A DNA stretch of 31,917 nt from a virus, in IMG/VR virus record IMGVR_UViG_3300027736_000152, positions 1 through 31,917 of that record; one strand, given 5' to 3'. This document shows, piece by piece, positions 8-24,379 of this stretch. Positions within the stretch are counted from its first letter, which is position 1. Each line of letters starts with the position of its first letter. The position numbers were made by a program, and so were the translations under genes. Under the pieces are notes generated by a model. It was not told the DNA's origin and did no database searches. It saw only the letters and a program-made list of their open reading frames with translations.

Positions 8-2593
8 ATGCCAAGCGACGCAAACCAGACCCAAGGCGGCGACCAGATCCGAGTGGCTCCCGTGTTCCAAGCACTCGTCACCCCGGTCGAGATGCAGAGG
101 TCGTACTACCTCTCCGTCAACAAGATTCTCCGTCAAGGCTCGCTGGCGTTCCGCAAGGACAGAAACCTTCAGCGGCAGATGCGCTACGACCCCGACATCA
201 TGGGGCCGCTCGTCATGCTGCAACTCTCGGTCGCGTGCGCGGAGTGGGCGGTTCAGGTTCCCGCCGACATGCAGGGCGACGAGCAGGCTACGGAGCAGGC
301 TGCGTTCGTAGAGAAACTGCTGAAGAACACCCCGCGCTTCACGGACATGATGCGCCATCTGCTCGACGCGCTCTGGTACGGGCGGTCGGCGGTCAACATG
401 GTTTTCGGCAAGCAGGGCGAAACGATCTACATCCGCGACTGGATGCCGATCCACGGCGACAGCCTGACCATGACCGAACTCGGCCAGTTGGGCCTGAAGG
501 TCGGCCCGCGCTACTACACCCAGACCATTGGCGGCGCAGCCCCGGACACGGACAAGATCAATGGCACGGTCATCGGCTGGGACTCGCGCGTCCTGCCGCT
601 GGACGATCAGCAGCGAGCCACCATTGCGCTGCACACCTACCAGCCACAGGGCGTGGATTTTGATGATCCCTACGAGGCAGAGAATGCCTACCTCGGTCGC
701 GGCATGCGCGATCTGGTCTGGTACTACTGGTCGCTGAAGCAGGCCGCACTACAGAACTGGGCGACCTACATTGAGCGATACAGCATGGGCATCCGCGTGG
801 GTAACTACCCCGTGGGCAATGAGGCCGCAAAGGCTGACATGGAGTCAGCCATGCAGAACTTGCTCGGCGATGTGTCGGTGCTGATTCCGAAGAACGCCGA
901 CGGCAGCGACGCAGGATTCGGCATCGACATCAAGGAACCGAATGGTGGCAACGCAGAAGCGTTCGCCAAGATGGTTGAGTACCTGACGGAGAACATCAAG
1001 GAAGTCATCCTCGGCCAGACTGGAACTTCGCAGGCGGTTACTAGCGGCCTCGGCTCAAGCATCGGCGACCAACACGCGCAGACGCTCAACCGTCAAGTGA
1101 CCTACATCGCCAACGCGCTGGCCGAAACCATCACGCGCGAAATCGTCACGCCCCTGTTCCGCATGAACTTCGGCGACGATGCCATTCCGCCTTCGTTCTC
1201 ATTCAGCGTGAGCAAGCCCAACCCCGAGGAATACATGAAGGCCATTGAAGCCTTCACCAAGTTAGGTGGCCGCGTCAGCGAGCGCGAAGCACGCAAGGTG
1301 CTTGGACTCGCCGAGCCAGAGGATGACGAAATGGTGCTTCAGGCTCCGTCCGAGGGTGGCATGGGCGGTGACGGAATGCCTCCGCTTGATGTCCGCCCGA
1401 TGGGCGAAGAACCGGGTGACGCAGGCCCGGACGAAAGCCAGCCGTTTCAGAAGGACAGATTCGCCCTGTCCGATGTAGACCTGACCCCACCCAAGGGCGC
1501 AGCCGAGGCCGCTGCCCGTGGTCTGGAACTGCGCCGCAAGCACGGTCGAGGCGGAACCGAAGTTGGCGTGGCTCGCGCACGCGACCTGTCGAACCGCAAG
1601 ACGCTCTCGCCTAGCACCGTGCGTCGGATGCACTCGTACTTTGCGCGGCATGAGGTTGACAAGCAGGGCGAGGGCTGGGGCGAGGACAGCGCGGGCTACA
1701 TCGCGTGGCTGCTCTGGGGCGGCGATGCTGGCAAGTCTTGGGCCAAGAAGAAGTCTGCCGAACTGGATCGCGCCGAGGGCAAGGACGAGAGCGCGAAGCG
1801 CGGCAGCAAGGATCGCTTCGACGGTGCGAACTGTGGCATCGGCGAGGGCGGCTTTCAGCCGGGGAACAAGTGCGCCGATGGCGGTGGTGGCGGTGGCGAG
1901 CAGCCAAAAGGGGTCGAGGGCCGAGAGCGCGCCGCGCCGAAGAAGGAACGCCGACGCGACCGGATCGAAGGCACGGACGAGGAAGTGAAGGATGAGGTTC
2001 GCAGGATTGAACGAAAGATCAAGCGCATTCAGTCGAAGCGAGCAGCATTGAAGAATGACTTGTCGGCAGTCAGCAAGCCGATGTCTAGCGAGCAATGGAA
2101 GCAGACGGTGGATGCTGCGGCACAGCAGAACATCAGCGAGCGGTCAAAAGAAATCATCGCCAAACTAGAAACGCAATATGCTGAAGATCGCGCTGCACTA
2201 GATCGACACTTTGCGCCGCTAATTGCCGAAGCAGATGCGCGCCTTAAAGCAGCAAATGAGCGCGTAGCCGCAGCAACAAAGAAGATCGAAGAAAGTAAAG
2301 AGCGGAGCAGGAAAATGCACTTGGAATTCCGCAAGAAGTTTGGCAAGGAACTTGATGCCAAGCATGCCAAGAAACTTGGACTTCCTCCGTACAAGGCAGA
2401 GAACTCCATTCGTGGTAAGAAGTCGATGTTCTCCATTGCTGAACAGAAGATGCGATCCGCATACGCTGCGCTGGTGAAGCAATTCAATAAATACTCCAAG
2501 ATGAGCAGCATGGCGATGGAAATCATTGATGAAAGCGATGCTCTGTACGATGCCATCGGCGCAATCTTGACCGTGGCTCGTCGTCGCAAGTGA
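8..2593 (+). CDS. Portal protein (DUF935 / Mu gp29-like) with long C-terminal extension
   Basis: The portal forms the dodecameric DNA gate at one capsid vertex and nucleates head assembly. Residues 1 to about 440 look like a DUF935 portal core: an N-terminal stretch rich in YYLSVNK and DPDI, a central WATYIERYSMGIRVGNYP segment, and QTGTSQAVTSGLGSSIG followed by DQHAQ. The protein has 861 aa, whereas DUF935 portals are usually about 500. The extra part has a domain at about 493-590 (GGTEVGVARARDLSNRK, LSPSTVRRM, GYIAWLLWGGDAGKSWA), a CGIGEGGFQPGNKCA motif near 608-622 followed by a poly-Gly linker, and a long charged coiled-coil-like region from about 655. DRF tripeptides lie at 483-485 and 602-604, just before and after the inserted domain. 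The ATG overlaps the stop (TAA, 6-8) of an upstream gene, probably terminase. The last third uses more A/T-rich codons than the core, suggesting separate acquisition. The portal call is strong; the role of the extension is unknown. Confidence 0.88.
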   Translation: MPSDANQTQGGDQIRVAPVFQALVTPVEMQRSYYLSVNKILRQGSLAFRKDRNLQRQMRYDPDIMGPLVMLQLSVACAEWAVQVPADMQGDEQATEQAAFVEKLLKNTPRFTDMMRHLLDALWYGRSAVNMVFGKQGETIYIRDWMPIHGDSLTMTELGQLGLKVGPRYYTQTIGGAAPDTDKINGTVIGWDSRVLPLDDQQRATIALHTYQPQGVDFDDPYEAENAYLGRGMRDLVWYYWSLKQAALQNWATYIERYSMGIRVGNYPVGNEAAKADMESAMQNLLGDVSVLIPKNADGSDAGFGIDIKEPNGGNAEAFAKMVEYLTENIKEVILGQTGTSQAVTSGLGSSIGDQHAQTLNRQVTYIANALAETITREIVTPLFRMNFGDDAIPPSFSFSVSKPNPEEYMKAIEAFTKLGGRVSEREARKVLGLAEPEDDEMVLQAPSEGGMGGDGMPPLDVRPMGEEPGDAGPDESQPFQKDRFALSDVDLTPPKGAAEAAARGLELRRKHGRGGTEVGVARARDLSNRKTLSPSTVRRMHSYFARHEVDKQGEGWGEDSAGYIAWLLWGGDAGKSWAKKKSAELDRAEGKDESAKRGSKDRFDGANCGIGEGGFQPGNKCADGGGGGGEQPKGVEGRERAAPKKERRRDRIEGTDEEVKDEVRRIERKIKRIQSKRAALKNDLSAVSKPMSSEQWKQTVDAAAQQNISERSKEIIAKLETQYAEDRAALDRHFAPLIAEADARLKAANERVAAATKKIEESKERSRKMHLEFRKKFGKELDAKHAKKLGLPPYKAENSIRGKKSMFSIAEQKMRSAYAALVKQFNKYSKMSSMAMEIIDESDALYDAIGAILTVARRRK

Positions 2594-3642
2594 CGGAGTT
2601 TGAGCGCATCTACAGGCGCGGACTCGCCGATGTCCGGCGGTGGTATCTCGCGGCTCTCGCCGCGCAGGTGCGCGACGAGCCGGAGGATGCCGCCGAGGCG
2701 TGGGAGCGGTACGGCGAGGTTCTAGGGCAGGTGATGACCCTGACGGCCCTAGCGGGCGCAGCGCAGGCCCACGCGGCCACCAAGGAGCAGGGGAACGACT
2801 GGGAGGCCGGAGAATGGCCGGAGGAGCGTCCCGAGACATTCGCGGCCGACGACGGTGGCTTCGGCCCCGGCGCGTACTGGAAGGCCATCCAAGCCTTCAG
2901 GAACCGTATCCCGCGTTCATGGTTGGAGGTGCGCCGTATCCGGGCGAAGATGCGACGGTTGGCCGAGCGCATCGCCAAGGCCGAGAGCCGGGAAGCCATC
3001 CGCGACCTGTCCAAGCGGCTGCAAGCGTTGCAGGACACGCTGTCCGGATCGTTTCGCGTCAAGGGCGCAACCGACGCGCAGGCTCGTCGCATCCGCGACC
3101 TGATCGCGCAAAGCATGGTGAACCAGTCCATCCCGAAGGGGCTGAAGACCGGGAGCCTGTCTGCATTCATCCGGCGGGCGCAAGTCGAGGGCATCATCGG
3201 CATGACCTCGGCTAGGTTGGAGACTGTCTACCGCACCAACACGGCAACGGCCTACAACGAAGCAACAGCAGAAACGATGGACAGCCCAGCGGTTGCGCGA
3301 TGGGCTCCGCTGGTGCGGCTAGTTGAGATTCACGACAGCCGGACGCGCGGCGCACCCGGAGGCGTGTACCGCCCGAAGGGCAAGAGCAAGAACCCCGGTA
3401 GCCATTGGCAGATGGATGGATACATCGCTACGGCGGCTGACATGCGCTCGCAGGGTCTTGTGCCACCAAACGGATTCAACTGCCGAGGCTCGCTAGAGCC
3501 TGTGACCTTTGACGAGGCCAAGGACATGGGCTTCATCAGCAAGGACGAAACTCTAGATCGTGCTGCGTTGGCACGGTATAACGCAACCCGGCAACGCATC
3601 ATCGACAGAGGCGATTACCCCGATCCCGGATTCAAACGATGA
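2590..3642 (+). CDS. Minor head / head morphogenesis protein (Mu gpF-like)
   Basis: This is a 350-aa protein of the Phage_Mu_F type, an internal head protein normally encoded just after the portal and needed for correct capsid assembly. The C-terminal third shows the family pattern: a helical TSARLETVYRTNTATAYNEA segment, HDSRTRGAPGGVY, GSHWQMDGYIA, and the near-invariant GLVPPNGFNCRGSLEPV at about 298-314. In relatives the last motif usually reads CRC; here it is CRG. The N-terminal 200 residues are helical and charged. The gene starts with GTG overlapping the portal stop (GTGA), and its own stop overlaps the next ATG, so expression is translationally coupled. Unlike its neighbours it lacks the repeated ERF/SRPG tags. 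Confidence 0.85.
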   Translation: MTEFERIYRRGLADVRRWYLAALAAQVRDEPEDAAEAWERYGEVLGQVMTLTALAGAAQAHAATKEQGNDWEAGEWPEERPETFAADDGGFGPGAYWKAIQAFRNRIPRSWLEVRRIRAKMRRLAERIAKAESREAIRDLSKRLQALQDTLSGSFRVKGATDAQARRIRDLIAQSMVNQSIPKGLKTGSLSAFIRRAQVEGIIGMTSARLETVYRTNTATAYNEATAETMDSPAVARWAPLVRLVEIHDSRTRGAPGGVYRPKGKSKNPGSHWQMDGYIATAADMRSQGLVPPNGFNCRGSLEPVTFDEAKDMGFISKDETLDRAALARYNATRQRIIDRGDYPDPGFKR

Positions 3643-4181
3643 CCAACAAGACAGAAGATCGGTTCTACTTCGGCAAGCACGGCCAGCCCGAGCGGTTTGG
3701 AGCAATTGAAGAAGCCGCCAAAATCCGCATCTCGGATATTCAATTAGGAAACGAGCAGCAGTTGAACAAGATCGAACCCATTTTGCAGGCGGCAGCAAAT
3801 ATGGGAGATGAGCGAGCAGCGCGGTATCTCAAGATGCTTCGGTTTGAACGCAAGCACCTTGGAACTTCTGTTCCACAGGCTCCTTGGCATCGCTCCTCCC
3901 GACCCGGCCAGCCCGAGCGGTTCGATGCGTCGAGCCTTGACCGCAAGGGGTTTGCGGCGGCTTCGTCCTCGCCCATGCTTGGCAAACTGCTTTCCGAGAA
4001 GCAGATGCCCGAGGGCGGATGGCGTGCGGTCGAGACTGGCGGCAATGCGCTGGTCATTTCGTTTGAGGACGGCGATGTGGCTGGGAACTTCGCTCGCCGC
4101 GTGGCGAGCAACGGCTACAGCGCGACGGCTCCGGTGCAGTCCATCGGACGCTACTGGAATGTGGAGGTGAAGAATGGCTGA
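3639..4181 (+). CDS. Modular head-locus protein with ERF/SRPG tags, function unknown
   Basis: I do not recognise this 180-aa protein as a named family. It is built from tags and small modules. Residues 7-20 carry DRFYFGK followed by PERF. A charged helical segment follows (to about residue 75), then SRPGQPERFDA at about 87-97, then a small alpha/beta-looking domain ending with RYWNVEVKNG. GGCCAGCCCGAGCGGTT occurs exactly twice in the gene (3681-3697 and 3906-3922), and the DRFYFGK coding segment recurs in the next gene. The helical segment is visibly richer in A/T codons than its surroundings. ATGA overlap with the F-like gene and an 8-nt overlap with the next gene place it within the head operon. 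The position between minor head protein and protease suggests an internal or packaged head protein; this is inference only. Confidence 0.6.
   Translation: MTNKTEDRFYFGKHGQPERFGAIEEAAKIRISDIQLGNEQQLNKIEPILQAAANMGDERAARYLKMLRFERKHLGTSVPQAPWHRSSRPGQPERFDASSLDRKGFAAASSSPMLGKLLSEKQMPEGGWRAVETGGNALVISFEDGDVAGNFARRVASNGYSATAPVQSIGRYWNVEVKNG
3657..3698 (+). repeat. Tag repeat DRFYFGK...ERF, copy 1
   Basis: The first 21 nt (3657-3677) match 4762-4782 at 20 of 21 positions. The segment encodes DRFYFGK followed by HGQPERF at the N-terminus of the 180-aa modular protein. It also contains GGCCAGCCCGAGCGGTT, repeated exactly at 3906-3922. Confidence 0.75.
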
Positions 4182-5274
4182 CGGCGCATCGGAACAGTTT
4201 GGAAAGCATGAAATGAAACTGTTGGATATTCGCAACCAATTCTTCAGGGCGTATGGCAATGCCATCCATGAAGCGAAAGTGAATGCGGATAGCCGTGCAG
4301 CGCAATCAGATGATGCAATCTTGCGTGCTGCGTGGTCGGAAATGTCTGGAACAAATTATGGCGGAGCAATCAAAACGCTAGACAGGCTTTCGTCGTTCAT
4401 GCGTTCCAAGCCATCTGTTGCACAGATGAAAAAGGCAGCGAACGATGCTGCAACCGAATATCGGCAGAACAAACTCGCCGTTCTTTCGCAATACGACCGC
4501 TTCTCCCGCCCCGGCGCGAAGGACATGATGGCGCGTGAAGTCGTTGCGCGAAAAGGCAGCAAGCGCGTTGAATTGAGCGGGCCAAACGGCAACGGTCAAT
4601 GGGTTGTGACCGTGATGCAGGAGGAAAAGCAGGTTGTGCCCGGAGAGGCAAATGATCGCTTTGTGGATTCCAAGTTCTATTCGACCGAGGCTGCTGCGCG
4701 TCGAGCCGCGAGCAAGATGCTTGCCTCCCGCCCCGGCGCGAAGGCGACCTTCAAGGTCGAGGATCGCTTCTACTTCGGCAAGGGCCGCAAGGAGCGGTTT
4801 GATCGCTACGGGTACGAAAAGATGGATTATGATCGGCTGGTGCGCGAGAGTTGGCATTTGAAGGATTCTGCGGAATACGCAGTAAGTCTTGGGCAAAAAG
4901 ATAATGAACTCCGACAGAAGATGAGTGCGTTGCAAAAGGAGTTCACTCGACGCGGATTCACGGCAGCAGCCACGGTTCTGGATGCAGCATTGCGAAAGCC
5001 ATTCTCCCGCCCCGGCAATCCCGAGCGGTTTGCAAGCATTTCGCGTCCGAAGCAAAGTGTTACTTCGGGGCCGACAGGAACTTGGAAGAAGCGAGAAGTA
5101 ACCGTGCGCGGGATAAAGGCATGGCTCGTTGAACTGTATCGCGGCGGCATTCTGGTTGGATATCTAAACCAGCATCCCGATACGCGACAATTCCACGCAT
5201 TTGATGGCAAAAACGATCAGCAGATTGGCGTGGGTTCTGAAGCCGAAATGAAGCGACTCGTAGAATCTCTGTAA
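4174..5274 (+). CDS. Larger modular head-locus protein with repeated SRPG / DRF-ERF tags
   Basis: This 366-aa protein is unrecognised as a whole. It is a chain of small domains separated by the same tags as the preceding protein: DRFSRPGAK at 108-116, SRPGAKA at 185-191, DRFYFGK...ERFD at 197-210, and FSRPGNPERF at 277-286. The first module (1-105) is helical. The second (about 117-184) looks beta-rich (GNGQWVVTVMQEEKQVV). The third (211-275) is helical. The last (about 290-366) has a beta-strand-rich WLVELYRGGILVGYLNQ segment. TCCCGCCCCGGCGCGAAGG is repeated exactly at 4504-4522 and 4726-4744. The gene overlaps its upstream neighbour by 8 nt and ends 2 nt before the protease-scaffold start. 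It may be a set of virion-internal cargo domains joined by linkers, but no enzymatic motif is evident. Confidence 0.6.
   Translation: MADGASEQFGKHEMKLLDIRNQFFRAYGNAIHEAKVNADSRAAQSDDAILRAAWSEMSGTNYGGAIKTLDRLSSFMRSKPSVAQMKKAANDAATEYRQNKLAVLSQYDRFSRPGAKDMMAREVVARKGSKRVELSGPNGNGQWVVTVMQEEKQVVPGEANDRFVDSKFYSTEAAARRAASKMLASRPGAKATFKVEDRFYFGKGRKERFDRYGYEKMDYDRLVRESWHLKDSAEYAVSLGQKDNELRQKMSALQKEFTRRGFTAAATVLDAALRKPFSRPGNPERFASISRPKQSVTSGPTGTWKKREVTVRGIKAWLVELYRGGILVGYLNQHPDTRQFHAFDGKNDQQIGVGSEAEMKRLVESL
4762..4803 (+). repeat. Tag repeat DRFYFGK...ERFD, copy 2
   Basis: This is the second copy of the DRFYFGK-coding segment, in the middle of the 366-aa modular protein, followed by GRKERFD. It separates a beta-rich module from a helical one. 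The near-identity to 3657-3677 at nucleotide level points to recent duplication or recombination. Confidence 0.75.
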
Positions 5275-5276
5275 CC

Positions 5277-6506
5277 ATGCCAGCCTCCCACACCGTCGAG
5301 AAGACCGAAGAAGGCAAGGTTCGCATCAAGAACCTTGAACTGTTCATGGGCTTCGATCCGTCCATCGACTCGGACGATGACGAGGCCATGCAGGGCTATG
5401 ACAATCGCAAGGTGCGCGACATCGTTTCACGCACCGGGAAGTTCATCCAGCGCGGCTCGCGTCCCAAACTCGTCATCGAACACGAGAAGGACGGCAAGGC
5501 CACGCGGCCCGAGGCGGTCGGCGACATCACCAGCGTCCGCTACGAGGAGCGCAACGGCGTTGCCTATGTGGTCGGCGATGTGGAGATGCCGAAGGAGGCG
5601 TTCGATTCGCTGCTGGCGACCAACGCATTCCCTCGCCGCAGCGCGGAGATTTGGAAGGACAATCATCTGTCGGAGGTGGCTCTGCTCGGGCGAGATACGC
5701 CGCGCAGGCCGCTGCCTGACACTCGGTTCACGAAGCACGGCTCAAAGGTGGTCTTTGAGCGTCCGCTTGGAGTGGTGCGCGTTTCTATTGACTCCAAGGA
5801 AAAGTTTGATGAAATTGGCGTCGGCGGAGGACTTAACACCTTCGTCCCGTCCGCAGGAACCAAAGGAAAGAACATGCCAAAGCACATGAAGAAGAAGATG
5901 GAAGCCGACGAGGAGGCCAAGAAGGCTCTGGAGGCTGCTGCCGCTATGGAGTGCGCGGTTGACGAGGACGAGGACAAGATGGCCGAGGAGGCTGATGCCG
6001 AGGCGATGGCCGCCGAGGGCATGGAGTTCGCTGGCCCCGTCGATGGCGACGAGGACGAAGAGAACTTTGAGGGCGACGAGGAAGAGAAGGACGAGGAAGA
6101 AATGGAGGCTGCTTACGGCGGAAAGGCCAAGATGTCCAAGGGTGACAAGTCCACCAAGGCTCTCTTCGCGCGCGTGCAGGAACTGGAGAAGCAACTGAAA
6201 CTGGAGCGGTTCGGCAAGGAAGTCGATTCCATGATCCGCGACGGCTACCGCTGCGGAAAGTTCCGCAACAGCATGGTGGAGGAACTGTCGGACGCTGCCA
6301 ACCCCGGCGCGAAGATCGCGTTCTGGAAGGCCACGATGGCCCGCCTGCCGCTGAATGTTCCGACCGTGGCGCAGCACACCGTGACCGATGAGGGTGGTTC
6401 GATCCTTGATCCCAAGGAAGCAACGACCCGAGCCGTGCGTGAAGCGGCTGGCGATCTCGCCAAGTTCAAGCAACTGTTCGCAAAGTACACGGGCCAGAAG
6501 GCCTAA
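5277..6506 (+). CDS. Prohead maturation protease-scaffold fusion (Mu gpI-like)
   Basis: This 409-aa protein combines a protease with a scaffold, as in Mu gpI. The N-terminal domain (about 1-165) has the layout of I-like/S78-like head proteases: a His in KLVIEHEKDG (H69) and a Ser in FPRRSAEIW (S122), followed by LSEVALLGRDTPR, which resembles the conserved loop after the catalytic Ser. I infer H69 and S122 as catalytic. Residues about 200-290 are an extreme acidic, Ala/Glu/Asp-rich helical scaffold region, then a coiled coil (FARVQELEKQLKLERFG) and a C-terminal helical domain that probably binds capsid protein. Between the halves are EKFDEIGVGGG and GGGLNTFVPS, the latter shared with the major capsid protein N-terminus. 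An internal start at 5874 may make the scaffold alone. The neighbours (portal, F-like, decoration, capsid) fit this role. Confidence 0.82.
   Translation: MPASHTVEKTEEGKVRIKNLELFMGFDPSIDSDDDEAMQGYDNRKVRDIVSRTGKFIQRGSRPKLVIEHEKDGKATRPEAVGDITSVRYEERNGVAYVVGDVEMPKEAFDSLLATNAFPRRSAEIWKDNHLSEVALLGRDTPRRPLPDTRFTKHGSKVVFERPLGVVRVSIDSKEKFDEIGVGGGLNTFVPSAGTKGKNMPKHMKKKMEADEEAKKALEAAAAMECAVDEDEDKMAEEADAEAMAAEGMEFAGPVDGDEDEENFEGDEEEKDEEEMEAAYGGKAKMSKGDKSTKALFARVQELEKQLKLERFGKEVDSMIRDGYRCGKFRNSMVEELSDAANPGAKIAFWKATMARLPLNVPTVAQHTVTDEGGSILDPKEATTRAVREAAGDLAKFKQLFAKYTGQKA
5862..5870 (+). promoter_or_regulatory. Internal ribosome binding site for the nested scaffold
   Basis: AAAGGAAAG lies inside the protease-scaffold frame, 5 nt (measured from AAGGAA) before an in-frame ATG at 5874. 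The stretch encodes TKGK, a low-complexity linker, so the purine run is not forced by a conserved motif. Confidence 0.6.
5874..6506 (+). CDS. Nested in-frame scaffold protein (gpZ-like), predicted
   Basis: An in-frame ATG at codon 200 of the protease-scaffold gene would give a 210-aa product (starting MPKHMKKKME) containing only the acidic scaffold and C-terminal helical domain. It has a good ribosome binding site (AAGGAA, 5 nt upstream) very like that of the decoration gene at 6525. In Mu and lambda, scaffold proteins (gpZ, Nu3) are made from internal starts inside the protease genes, and the geometry here is the same: protease domain, junction, internal start, scaffold. The evidence is the start signal and domain boundary only; translation is not proven. 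Confidence 0.62.
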   Translation: MPKHMKKKMEADEEAKKALEAAAAMECAVDEDEDKMAEEADAEAMAAEGMEFAGPVDGDEDEENFEGDEEEKDEEEMEAAYGGKAKMSKGDKSTKALFARVQELEKQLKLERFGKEVDSMIRDGYRCGKFRNSMVEELSDAANPGAKIAFWKATMARLPLNVPTVAQHTVTDEGGSILDPKEATTRAVREAAGDLAKFKQLFAKYTGQKA

Positions 6507-6524: not shown

Positions 6525-6965
6525 ATGGGTGCATTCTCTGATACTCCGGCACTTATCGCAGGCGGCACGGTCTATGCGTACCGCTTCATCAAGGTCGATG
6601 CGACTGGCCCGACTGCCAACACCGATGACAACACGGGCGTGCAGGTTAGCAGCGCGGCTGACAATGTGGTTGGCGTGACCGATGGCAGCACCCGTCGCTT
6701 TGATACGAGCGACGGCACGCACGCGCTTGATGGCGAGCCGATCACCCTTCAGGGTGGCAATGTGGTTCTTGTGGAATGCGGCGGTGCAGTTGCTCGCGGC
6801 AGTCGCGTGCAGGCTGACTCAAACGGCAAGGCAGTCACGGCTGTCGAGACTGTTGGCCCCGTATTCCGATATCAGGGCTATGTGGCTCTGGAAGCAGGCG
6901 CGTCCGGCCGAATCATTCGCATCGTGAAGAATGGTGGAATGGTTTACTACCCCACCACTCTCTGA
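6525..6965 (+). CDS. Capsid decoration / stabilisation protein (DUF2190-like)
   Basis: This is a 146-aa beta-rich protein between scaffold and major capsid genes, the usual place for a decoration protein that trims the outer capsid surface and stabilises the filled head. AGGTVYAYRFIKVDA, DNTGVQVSSAADNVVGVTDG, and EPITLQGGNVVLVECGGAVARG resemble the DUF2190-type fold, in which an open beta structure binds at capsid three-fold positions. The start follows GAAAGGAAACACA, a good Shine-Dalgarno sequence. No cleavage or targeting signal is evident. Assignment rests on fold-like patterns and position, so an alternative small head protein cannot be excluded. Confidence 0.7.
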   Translation: MGAFSDTPALIAGGTVYAYRFIKVDATGPTANTDDNTGVQVSSAADNVVGVTDGSTRRFDTSDGTHALDGEPITLQGGNVVLVECGGAVARGSRVQADSNGKAVTAVETVGPVFRYQGYVALEAGASGRIIRIVKNGGMVYYPTTL

Positions 6966-6990: not shown

Positions 6991-8052
6991 ATGACTGAAG
7001 TTGCACCCGGCGGCGGACTGAATACATTCATCCCCACCTTCTCGCCCGCTACGGGCCAGATCCAGATTGAGTTCACCCGTTCGGTGAACAAGTTCCCTCT
7101 GACCCGCTACAGCCAGATCGTGCCTGTGCAGGCAATGGCGGGTTACTACCTCGCCATCGACGAGGAGGAGACTGCTCGCGTCGTGCAGACGCAGGATCAG
7201 TTGTGGATGCTCGGCGAAGATCGCCCGACTGGCATTAACAGCGACTTTGACTTCAAGTCGTTCGCTTGCGCTCGCTACCAGTCGTCGTTCCACATCCCGC
7301 AGGAGACTGCTCGTCAGGCTCAATGGGATATCGTGGCAAGCCATGCCCGCATCGCTGCTGCGAAGATGATGACTCATCGTGGCGTGCGACTGGCAACCAC
7401 GATCACGACCGTTGGCAGTTACGCTGCCGACTACAGCGGCGGCTCATACAGCGCATCTTCGGGCGTTGGCTACTACAACAACGCAACGAAGTTGATGAAC
7501 AGCGACCTTGCGGACTCTGGCGATCAGGTGCAGAAGTTGTTCCGCACCGCTGCCGAGAAGATTGTGCAGGCGACCAACGCTGCCGTCAGCCCAAGCGACA
7601 TCTGCGCGGTGATGAATCCCATCACCGCCCGAATCATCGCATCGACTGAAGGCGTGCGCGACTATGTGAAGAACTACCCCGCCGCGTTCAACTTCCTTCA
7701 GGGTGACGCGCAGTTTGCCACCTATGGCCTGCCGAGTCAGTTGTTCGGCGTGCAGGTGGTGGTCGATGACACCGTGCGCGTTACGAATCGCAAGGGTTCG
7801 ACCAAGGCGACCAGTTTCTTCTACGGTGATGCTTCGGCCCCCGCGATTGCGTTCGTCAGCCGTCCCGGCGGTCTTGTGGGCAATGAAGGCCCGTCCTTCA
7901 GCAGCCTCACGATCTTCGCATACGAAGACATGACCGTGGAGACTCTGGACGATCCGTGGAACCGTCGCGTCAAGGGCAGCGTGACCGACAACAGCGCAAC
8001 GGTGATGACCTCGCCTCTGTCGAGCCTGTATGTCGCCGACATCCTCACCTGA
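6991..8052 (+). CDS. Major capsid protein
   Basis: This 353-aa protein is the expected size for an HK97-fold capsid subunit lacking a long delta domain; here the scaffold is supplied by the separate upstream gene. It follows protease-scaffold and decoration genes and precedes the connector genes. Features include FTRSVNKFPLTRYSQIVPVQ near the N-terminus (E-loop/N-arm region), IVQATNAAVSPSDICAVMNPITAR and NFLQGDAQFATYGLPSQLFGVQVVVDDTVRV typical of the P- and A-domain strands, and FAYEDMTVETLDDPWNRRVKGSVTDN at the C-terminus. The N-terminus MTEVAPGGGLNTFIPTFS shares GGGLNTF with the protease-scaffold junction. The start is preceded by AAAAAGGAG. A hairpin terminator follows at 8075-8105. Confidence 0.88.
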   Translation: MTEVAPGGGLNTFIPTFSPATGQIQIEFTRSVNKFPLTRYSQIVPVQAMAGYYLAIDEEETARVVQTQDQLWMLGEDRPTGINSDFDFKSFACARYQSSFHIPQETARQAQWDIVASHARIAAAKMMTHRGVRLATTITTVGSYAADYSGGSYSASSGVGYYNNATKLMNSDLADSGDQVQKLFRTAAEKIVQATNAAVSPSDICAVMNPITARIIASTEGVRDYVKNYPAAFNFLQGDAQFATYGLPSQLFGVQVVVDDTVRVTNRKGSTKATSFFYGDASAPAIAFVSRPGGLVGNEGPSFSSLTIFAYEDMTVETLDDPWNRRVKGSVTDNSATVMTSPLSSLYVADILT

Positions 8053-23464: not shown

Positions 23465-24379
23465 ATGACAGACACCAAGAATCTTGCCAGCGCGTTGCTG
23501 GCGGCACAGAAGGCTTTGCCGAGCGTCGGCAAGGACGCAAAGAACTCATTCCACCACTACTCGTATGTGAGCGCGGAGGCGATGATCGGAGCGTGCCGGG
23601 ACGCGCTTCACGGCGCAGGATTGACCGTCCGCCGCGCAGGCTGGAAGTACGACGGATCGCCGGAGGGCGGCATCGTGAACAGCACCTTCGTCTTGACCCA
23701 CGGCTCCACGGGCGAGTCGGTCAGCGACGAGATCGCGTGGATCTGCGTGCCGGAGAAGGGCAAGCCCATCGACAAGGCGATGGCCGGGGCGTTGACCAGT
23801 TCGCTCGGCTACTACCTGCGCGACCTCCTGCTGGTTCCCCGCGAAGATGAGTCCGAGATGGATCGCCGCGACGACCGAACCTACGAGCCGCGCAAGGCAG
23901 CCCCGGCGCGGAGCAATTCCACCACACTTGTGCAGAACCGTACCGCAAACGCTCCGGCGCAGCAGGATGCCCCACAAGCCATCCCGGCTCCAAAGGCTAC
24001 CCCGACCCCACCCAAGGCCAAGGAACCCGCCACGGCGGCTCCTAGCGCGTTTGGCGAGGTACTGGCTTCCCGGCCCGCCAAGGACTGCACATGGCGACAG
24101 GGGTTGCGCGTCACCAAGGTGGGGCAAGGCAAGCCGACCGCCAAGGGCGGCAACCGATACCCAATCTTGTTCGCCACGGACAGCGGCGAGCAATGGGCTT
24201 CGTGCTTCGACCAGACCGTGATGCAGGCCGCGCAAGATGCGATGGGCGGCGATTCGGTCGAGGCGTTCATTCAAGAGGGCCAGTACGGCTGGACGCTCTA
24301 CGGAATCCGCACCACGCTAGAATCCACCCAGCAGCAGGCCGCGACCGTCGCGATTGAGGCTGACGAGATCCCGTTCTGA
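23465..24379 (+). CDS. ERF-family single-strand annealing protein with SSB-like C-terminal tip
   Basis: This 304-aa protein has an ERF superfamily N-terminal domain (about 1-135): LASALLAAQKALPSVGKDAK, then HHYSYVSAEAMIGACRDAL, and DKAMAGALTSSLGYYLRDLL with LLVPREDE. ERF proteins anneal complementary single strands during phage recombination and replication. A Pro/Ala-rich linker (about 145-195) leads to a beta-rich C-terminal domain (about 205-285: GLRVTKVG, NRYPILFATDSGEQWASCF, YGWTLYGIRTTL). The last residues, ADEIPF, copy the acidic tip of bacterial SSB (DDDIPF), which recruits repair and replication enzymes. GAGACACCCC immediately precedes ATG. Neighbouring Gp157 and RusA fit a recombination module. 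Confidence 0.85.
   Translation: MTDTKNLASALLAAQKALPSVGKDAKNSFHHYSYVSAEAMIGACRDALHGAGLTVRRAGWKYDGSPEGGIVNSTFVLTHGSTGESVSDEIAWICVPEKGKPIDKAMAGALTSSLGYYLRDLLLVPREDESEMDRRDDRTYEPRKAAPARSNSTTLVQNRTANAPAQQDAPQAIPAPKATPTPPKAKEPATAAPSAFGEVLASRPAKDCTWRQGLRVTKVGQGKPTAKGGNRYPILFATDSGEQWASCFDQTVMQAAQDAMGGDSVEAFIQEGQYGWTLYGIRTTLESTQQQAATVAIEADEIPF

Follow-up and report, generated by a model that had tools for sequence, protein, structure and literature searches.

Here we describe two adjacent open reading frames (ORFs A and B) in the head gene cluster of a family of uncultured bacterial viruses, which are built as arrays of small modules separated by short, repeated tags. We propose, with a probability of roughly 0.6, that they are cassette polyproteins that are shuffled at these tags, cut after phenylalanine by the prohead protease and carried in the phage head. 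The window, the whole stretch of DNA analysed, is the complete IMG/VR record IMGVR_UViG_3300027736_000152 (31,917 bp). Its gene order is portal, MuF, ORF A, ORF B, followed by a predicted protease-scaffold protein, a cement-like protein and a probable capsid protein (Table 1). The start and stop codons from the portal gene through ORF B overlap by 4, 4 and 8 nt, which makes it probable that translation of both ORFs is coupled to that of the head proteins. Matches to Portal_Mu and Phage_Mu_F both exceed the cut-off, a feature of a Mu-like head cluster. The window shares the order portal-MuF-protease/scaffold-capsid with the Mu-like head module (gp29 portal, gp30 MuF, gpI/Z protease-scaffold), but differs from it in having two cassette ORFs between MuF and the protease.

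The first-pass annotation had pointed to DNA repeats separating unrelated modules in these two proteins, and the repeats lie exactly where it placed them: TCCCGCCCCGGCGCGAAGG at 4504 and 4726, GGCCAGCCCGAGCGGTT at 3681 and 3906, and a 20/21 match between 3657 and 4762. The longest exact repeat inside the two ORFs is 20 bp; among 2000 codon shuffles a repeat of at least 17 bp arose once and one of at least 15 bp eight times. The repeats code for SRPGQPERF and SRPGAK tags between non-homologous modules, the tag types being SRPGxPE[RK]F, SRPG[AE]K[DA][MT][MF] and VEDRFYFGKGRKERF. Codon usage shows that the tags are conserved at the level of DNA, with synonymous sites nearly fixed: Pro is encoded by CCC in 46/46 cases (25% in modules), Arg by CGG in 41/46 (11%) and Ser by TCC in 42/46 (15%). 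Homogenisation of tags within a phage was not significant (permutation p 0.29). A search of IMG/VR coded for the tags returned almost only this phage group, together with an apparent chance match (L063). The 13-mer CCCCGGCGCGAAG occurs at 4509, 4731 and, as the first-pass annotation had pointed out, in the scaffold at 6302, but this last copy was rejected as a tag. It codes for NPGAK within a conserved region of the scaffold where aligned relatives carry NPTAK, NPSAK or RPEAK, and is therefore a coincidental match.

Relatives were collected by scanning with ORF A (47 viral loci), with the constant domain that ends ORF A (52 loci) and with the predicted protease (62 loci, including an outgroup at about 35% identity). 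ORFs A and B were split at the tags in 50 loci, some of them partial. The 300 segments obtained fall into 102 clusters, yielding ~94 usable module families with a median length of 70 aa; the arrays draw on about 94–100 unrelated families, and the accumulation of families across loci is not saturating. Together, ORFs A and B of a phage hold about 1–11 modules, and no module order is seen twice, with 50 different orders in 50 loci. Every family with at least three copies (34/34) is found beside several different neighbours. Fifteen families are shared between the ORF closed by the constant domain and another ORF. In L023 ORF A is without any module, and several ORF Bs stop right after VEDRFYFGK (L012, L041 and L045). 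Where the neighbours of a shared module differ, the DNA match extends a median of 27 nt past the module, which is the length of a tag (224/265 edges lie within 5–45 nt), compared with 287 nt where the neighbours are the same. For module m3 of the window and L007, the match ends 55 nt to the left and 29 nt to the right. Close pairs of loci differ by whole cassettes: L019 and L021 are 99.7% identical over 2280 nt and L021 is without two tag-bounded modules, whilst L036 and L037 are 99.8% identical over 4466 nt and L037 is without the first module of ORF B. Swappable modules between identical tags, as suggested in the first-pass annotation, are thus strongly supported, and the fixed module order in relatives that it named as the contrary case is excluded. 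We consider the shuffling of these modular arrays by exchange at tags to be well supported by such comparisons.

It is very improbable that this variety is instead an artefact of metagenome assembly, with contigs joined at the 27–30 bp tags. The same arrays are found in contigs of different samples (L003/L004, L025/L026, L045/L046 and L014/L017), shared modules often differ by 2–15% rather than being identical, the arrays retain open frames, and one lineage (lineage 3) uses other tags. The case that resembles such an artefact is L028, which is identical to L030 for 6979 nt until the two diverge inside a tag; here a lineage 2 array is joined within a tag to a lineage 4 array, with two constant domains, in what is probably a hybrid or misassembled contig. 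Because L028 has the constant domain twice and may be misassembled, this pair was given no weight as evidence of exchange.

A candidate for the shuffling enzyme is the ERF-family single-strand annealing protein encoded in the window, which would act as the agent of exchange between tags; a protein of this family is also present in 12 of the 20 relatives examined. It has been suggested that phage recombinases of the Rad52-like/ERF type promote exchange where homology is short and imperfect (PMC3945230). The phages studied here have short-homology exchange in common with that mosaicism, but differ in that the short homologies are dedicated, in-frame tags repeated within a coding array.

The motif of the tag peptides also recurs in other head proteins. 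A weight matrix trained on the tags of other phages only was run over the 33 proteins of the window (8966 positions). Its four best sites outside ORFs A and B lie in the portal (Phe485 and Phe604), the protease-scaffold protein (Phe177) and MuF (Phe84), and each scores above the value that bounds 95% of shuffled proteomes at the same rank. The DRF/EKF peptides that the first-pass annotation had noticed are present, at the portal insert as KDRF (1451–1462 and 1808–1819) and at the junction of protease and scaffold as EKFDEIG (Phe at 5805–5807), and it is these that the matrix ranks highest outside ORFs A and B. In relatives the MuF site reads PETF/A, PDTF/A or PDRF/D (a slash marks the candidate cut). 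The scaffold Phe177 is invariant in 23 homologues whilst the residues before it vary over the letters found in tags (K, R, Q, T, S), and the outgroup junction, RPVTF/AEV, keeps the Phe. In lineage 3 homologues of the same modules are flanked by SRTG[AS]KAKFA, and the tag SRTGAKAKFA is matched by a junction of KSKF/DEIG; the tag therefore follows the phage and not the module. Directly after the candidate scaffold site (5808–5852) the sequence copies the capsid N-terminus (6991–7040) as D/A-E-x-G-x-GGGLNTF-I/V-P, a likeness kept in every lineage including the outgroup (RPVTF/AEVAPGGSNTFVP compared with M/AEVAPGGGNTFVPT). The boundary between protease and scaffold is therefore marked independently of the motif. 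The shared stretch may be a docking motif.

These comparisons show that the tags share a motif with three head proteins, and point to the prohead protease as the enzyme that probably cuts them after Phe. The proposal of the first-pass annotation that tags are protease sites thus gains indirect support, from the common motif and from a tag that is predicted to be disordered between folded domains. In an AlphaFold model of ORF A the module is helical and the constant domain folded, with a tag of low confidence (residues 76–92) between them; the fold of ORF A, its constant domain included, has no significant match in the PDB. As for the enzyme, the protein encoded at 5277–6506 is predicted to be the prohead protease from its position and layout: the N-terminal half is rich in strands and contains the invariant residues His69 and Ser122, and an acidic, helical, scaffold-like half follows.

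Several observations weigh against the overall model. The junction of lineage 4 (L057, L168, L169 and L171) has Asn in place of Phe, the motif is not depleted inside modules, and the KDMM and KDTM tags of ORF B would require either Met at P1 or internal translation starts. Neither the window protein nor its relatives nor the 35% outgroup match a Pfam or PHROG protease family; the protease of D3112 matches Mu-like_Pro (PF10123) whereas that predicted here does not. Alignment with the Mu-like I/Z protein of D3112 by hhalign was negative and a Foldseek match to T4 gp21 was weak (rank 19, probability 0.25). As for exchange, no ERF protein was found in lineage 3.

The first two of these points would be expected if the tags were only flexible linkers, persisting as recombination scars, in an uncut multidomain protein of the virion or cytoplasm, as would their predicted disorder. 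We judge this to be unlikely, since the same motif stands at the portal insert, in MuF and at the protease-scaffold junction, the junction Phe is invariant in the homologues and kept in the outgroup though its upstream neighbours differ, and versions of the tag track phage lineage. The ATG-bearing tags raise a separate alternative, that KDMM/KDTM tags are internal ribosome starts from which ORF B yields small proteins by internal initiation with no cutting. The tag DNA GAAGGACATGATGGC has a Shine-Dalgarno-like AAGGA beside ATGATG, and module m5 (MASENEVRL...) is found both as the start of ORF B and after KDM. This reading, which we hold to be improbable, explains only the ATG-bearing tags of ORF B; a start codon is missing from the PERF and KATF tags. 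It is also quite unlikely that the tags are mainly capsid-targeting peptides, similar to the T4 capsid targeting sequence, which dock proteins to the scaffold with cutting secondary or absent. Most tags are internal, and a purely N-terminal targeting peptide would not require internal copies. Nevertheless, ORF A starts with a near-constant TEDRFYFGK..PERF peptide, and a peptide of the EDRFYFG type returns ahead of the final part of ORF B and begins the separate constant-domain gene of lineage 4; in T4, internal proteins are likewise guided to the head by a short signal at their N-terminus (PMC7411985, PMC12373910).

Our preferred reading, that of processed cassette polyproteins, can be set out in four steps. 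ORFs A and B, which from their sequence hold small modules between short tags, would be cassette polyproteins of the head gene cluster. Because 27–30 bp of tag are nearly identical in DNA, recombination between tags in a mixed infection could gain, lose or replace any cassette in frame; exchange itself is seen by comparison of loci, and the enzyme is probably the ERF annealing protein of the phage. The tag peptide would also hold the processing signal of the phage itself, [EDA][RKTQ]F/[ADGE], common to portal, MuF and the protease-scaffold junction, and cleavage behind the Phe by the prohead protease would free the modules. Finally, since they are translationally coupled to portal and MuF, ORFs A and B would probably be incorporated into the prohead, and the modules would probably enter the host along with the DNA, to act as small proteins of host takeover or counter-defence. 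More tentatively, and at slightly less than even odds, a single tag of 27–30 bp may serve two uses, as a DNA crossover handle through which a phage population trades cassettes in frame and as the processing signal that frees cassettes in the head, giving an open-ended, combinatorial supply of injected mini-proteins. If cutting were proven, a tag with both uses would have no precedent in the literature searched.

The arrangement is a variant of injected or polyvalent head proteins; no description of such a tag-bounded array was found in the literature searched. By analogy, the best precedent for head-carried modules would be the internal proteins of T4: a short N-terminal signal takes them to the head, the prohead protease processes them, and once injected they block type IV restriction (PMC7411985, PMC12373910). 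IPI-IPIII and Alt resemble the tag-bounded modules in being small and variable and in having a short conserved peptide that is tied to prohead cutting by gp21. However, they are separate genes with one N-terminal signal, whereas in the window a polypeptide can hold many modules, the tags are internal and the motif is a different one, and its putatively packaged arrays lie in a Mu-like head cluster. Among multidomain proteins the nearest class is that of the polyvalent proteins (Iyer et al. 2017), in which H. pylori jhp1044 was reported with up to 50 domain combinations (PMC5512222). Like these, ORFs A and B carry several unrelated, shuffled domains per polypeptide and are encoded near the portal and MuF genes. 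Polyvalent proteins have mostly recognised catalytic or binding domains, in contrast to the ~70-aa modules without known families found here, and ORFs A and B differ further in having near-identical DNA tags that resemble processing sites (the word 'linker' is absent from PMC5512222). Searches of Pfam, PHROG and PADLOC with 49 ORFs A and B gave no recognised polyvalent domain (MPTase, ART, PBECR, ParB, etc.), no meaningful Pfam match, no functional PHROG and no PADLOC match, all PHROG matches being to families of unknown function.

Packaging tags and cargo had also been proposed in the first-pass annotation; gene position, optional portal extensions and the free-standing relatives of two modules suggest that the modules may be carried in the head and delivered with DNA. 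The C-terminal extension of the portal is absent in L003 and L010, coiled-coil-like in the window, L005 and L012, and replaced by other domains behind DRF/DGANCG in L007/L023 and L036. The extension of L007 (1924–4797) and L023 (2038–4797) looks ADP-ribosyltransferase-like by eye, with no Pfam match. L169 carries in its ORF A a module with 77% identity to a portal insert of L005, a segment that is optional in portals. Modules standing alone, which had been proposed as a check, were found for two families in phages and plasmids. Family m22 occurs as Milano_093 (94 aa) and in many other phages and conjugative plasmids, whilst m18 stands alone in Variovorax phage V45v66, in an ORF of 72 aa, and has counterparts of 60–64% identity among the small proteins of Pseudomonas plasmids.

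The module set matches 876 plasmid records, mainly through m18 and m22; one m22 homologue lies on an IncX4 conjugative plasmid (L135, 6037–6360) in a run of small hypothetical genes. Module m1, found in ORF A of many loci, is the short peptide CWxGYEPVGxKxKxGxxVPNCVP; cyanophage proteins from the structural region, Syn33_105 among them, have it too. The MuF of L192 (3872–5707, compared with 4694–5716 in L184) has an insert of ~270 aa flanked by the direct repeat KATYAK and opened by GCGAG..GFQPGNTC, near the position of the RPETF/AADD site of the window; no description of GFQPGN was found in the searched literature. L131, a phage-like GTDB contig of 6.5 kb, carries the label of a Nitrospiraceae metagenome-assembled genome, which is too weak to name a host.

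Table 1. Features of the window in the head gene cluster, ORFs A and B, and the candidate cleavage sites.
Feature	Position	Strand	Evidence and remarks
Portal protein, Portal_Mu (PF06074), C-terminal extension optional and exchanged	8..2593	+	Pfam 174.4 bits; extension varies or is absent among relatives
Candidate site SQPFQKDRF/ALSD, portal Phe485	KDRF 1451..1462	+	Matrix 16.2, best site outside A/B
Portal insert module (DVDLTPPKGAAEAAARGLELRRKHGRGG...)	1463..1807	+	Related to phrog_2859, E=2.4e-18 over portal residues 481-599
Candidate site RGSKDRF/DGANCG, portal Phe604, start of exchanged C-terminal extension	KDRF 1808..1819	+	Matrix 13.7
MuF minor head protein (PF04233)	2590..3642	+	Pfam 41.9 bits; 4-nt overlaps with portal and with ORF A
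Candidate site EERPETF/AADD, MuF Phe84	RPETF 2827..2841	+	Matrix 9.8, fourth best outside A/B
ORF A: N-terminal tag, one variable module, tag, constant domain	3639..4181	+	
N-terminal tag MTNKTEDRFYFGKHGQPERF	3639..3698	+	ORF A N-terminus near-constant in relatives
Variable module m35 (GAIEEAAK...PWHR), helical	3699..3893	+	Replaced by other modules in relatives; AF2 helices 39-74
Tag SSRPGQPERF	3894..3923	+	Low-confidence, disordered stretch 76-92 in model
Constant C-terminal domain m0 (DASSLDRKGF...NVEVKNG)	3924..4178	+	Separate tagged gene in lineage 4 (L051, L074, L085)
ORF B: four variable modules, three kinds of tag	4174..5274	+	
Module m36	4174..4503	+	Located in ORF A in L029
Tag SRPGAKDMMA	4504..4533	+	Contains AAGGA and ATGATG
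Module m6 (REVVARKGSK...SKML)	4534..4722	+	Same family with other neighbours in L009, L010, L020, L051, L074
Double tag ASRPGAKATFK-VEDRFYFGKGRKERF	4723..4800	+	
Module m3 (DRYGYEKMDYDRL...)	4801..5001	+	ORF B in window, L005, L011; ORF A in L007, L028, L131
Tag FSRPGNPERF	5002..5031	+	
C-terminal module m26 (ASISRPKQSV...)	5032..5271	+	Also in L032 and L131
Predicted prohead protease-scaffold protein	5277..6506	+	Assigned by position, layout, invariant H69/S122; family not confirmed
Candidate protease-scaffold site SIDSKEKF/DEIG, Phe177	EKF 5799..5807	+	Matrix 13.9
GGGLNTF in scaffold, copy of capsid-protein N-terminus	5823..5843	+	
Cement-like protein	6525..6965		
Probable major capsid protein, N-terminus MTEVAPGGGLNTFIPTFS	6991..8052	+	Gene position; phrog_1005 E=0.0014 (weak)
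ERF-family single-strand annealing protein, candidate shuffling enzyme	23465..24379	+	PF04404 37.1 bits, cut-off 25; in 12/20 relatives

If our reading is true, these phages already possess the means to load interchangeable small proteins into a capsid. They would thereby hold roughly a hundred uncharacterised mini-proteins, probably injected first, which may counter host defences, and the tags would be a search key for the injected effectors of uncultured phages. Domain shuffling is here tied to one particular short stretch of DNA, which shows with unusual clarity how phage mosaicism can be channelled.

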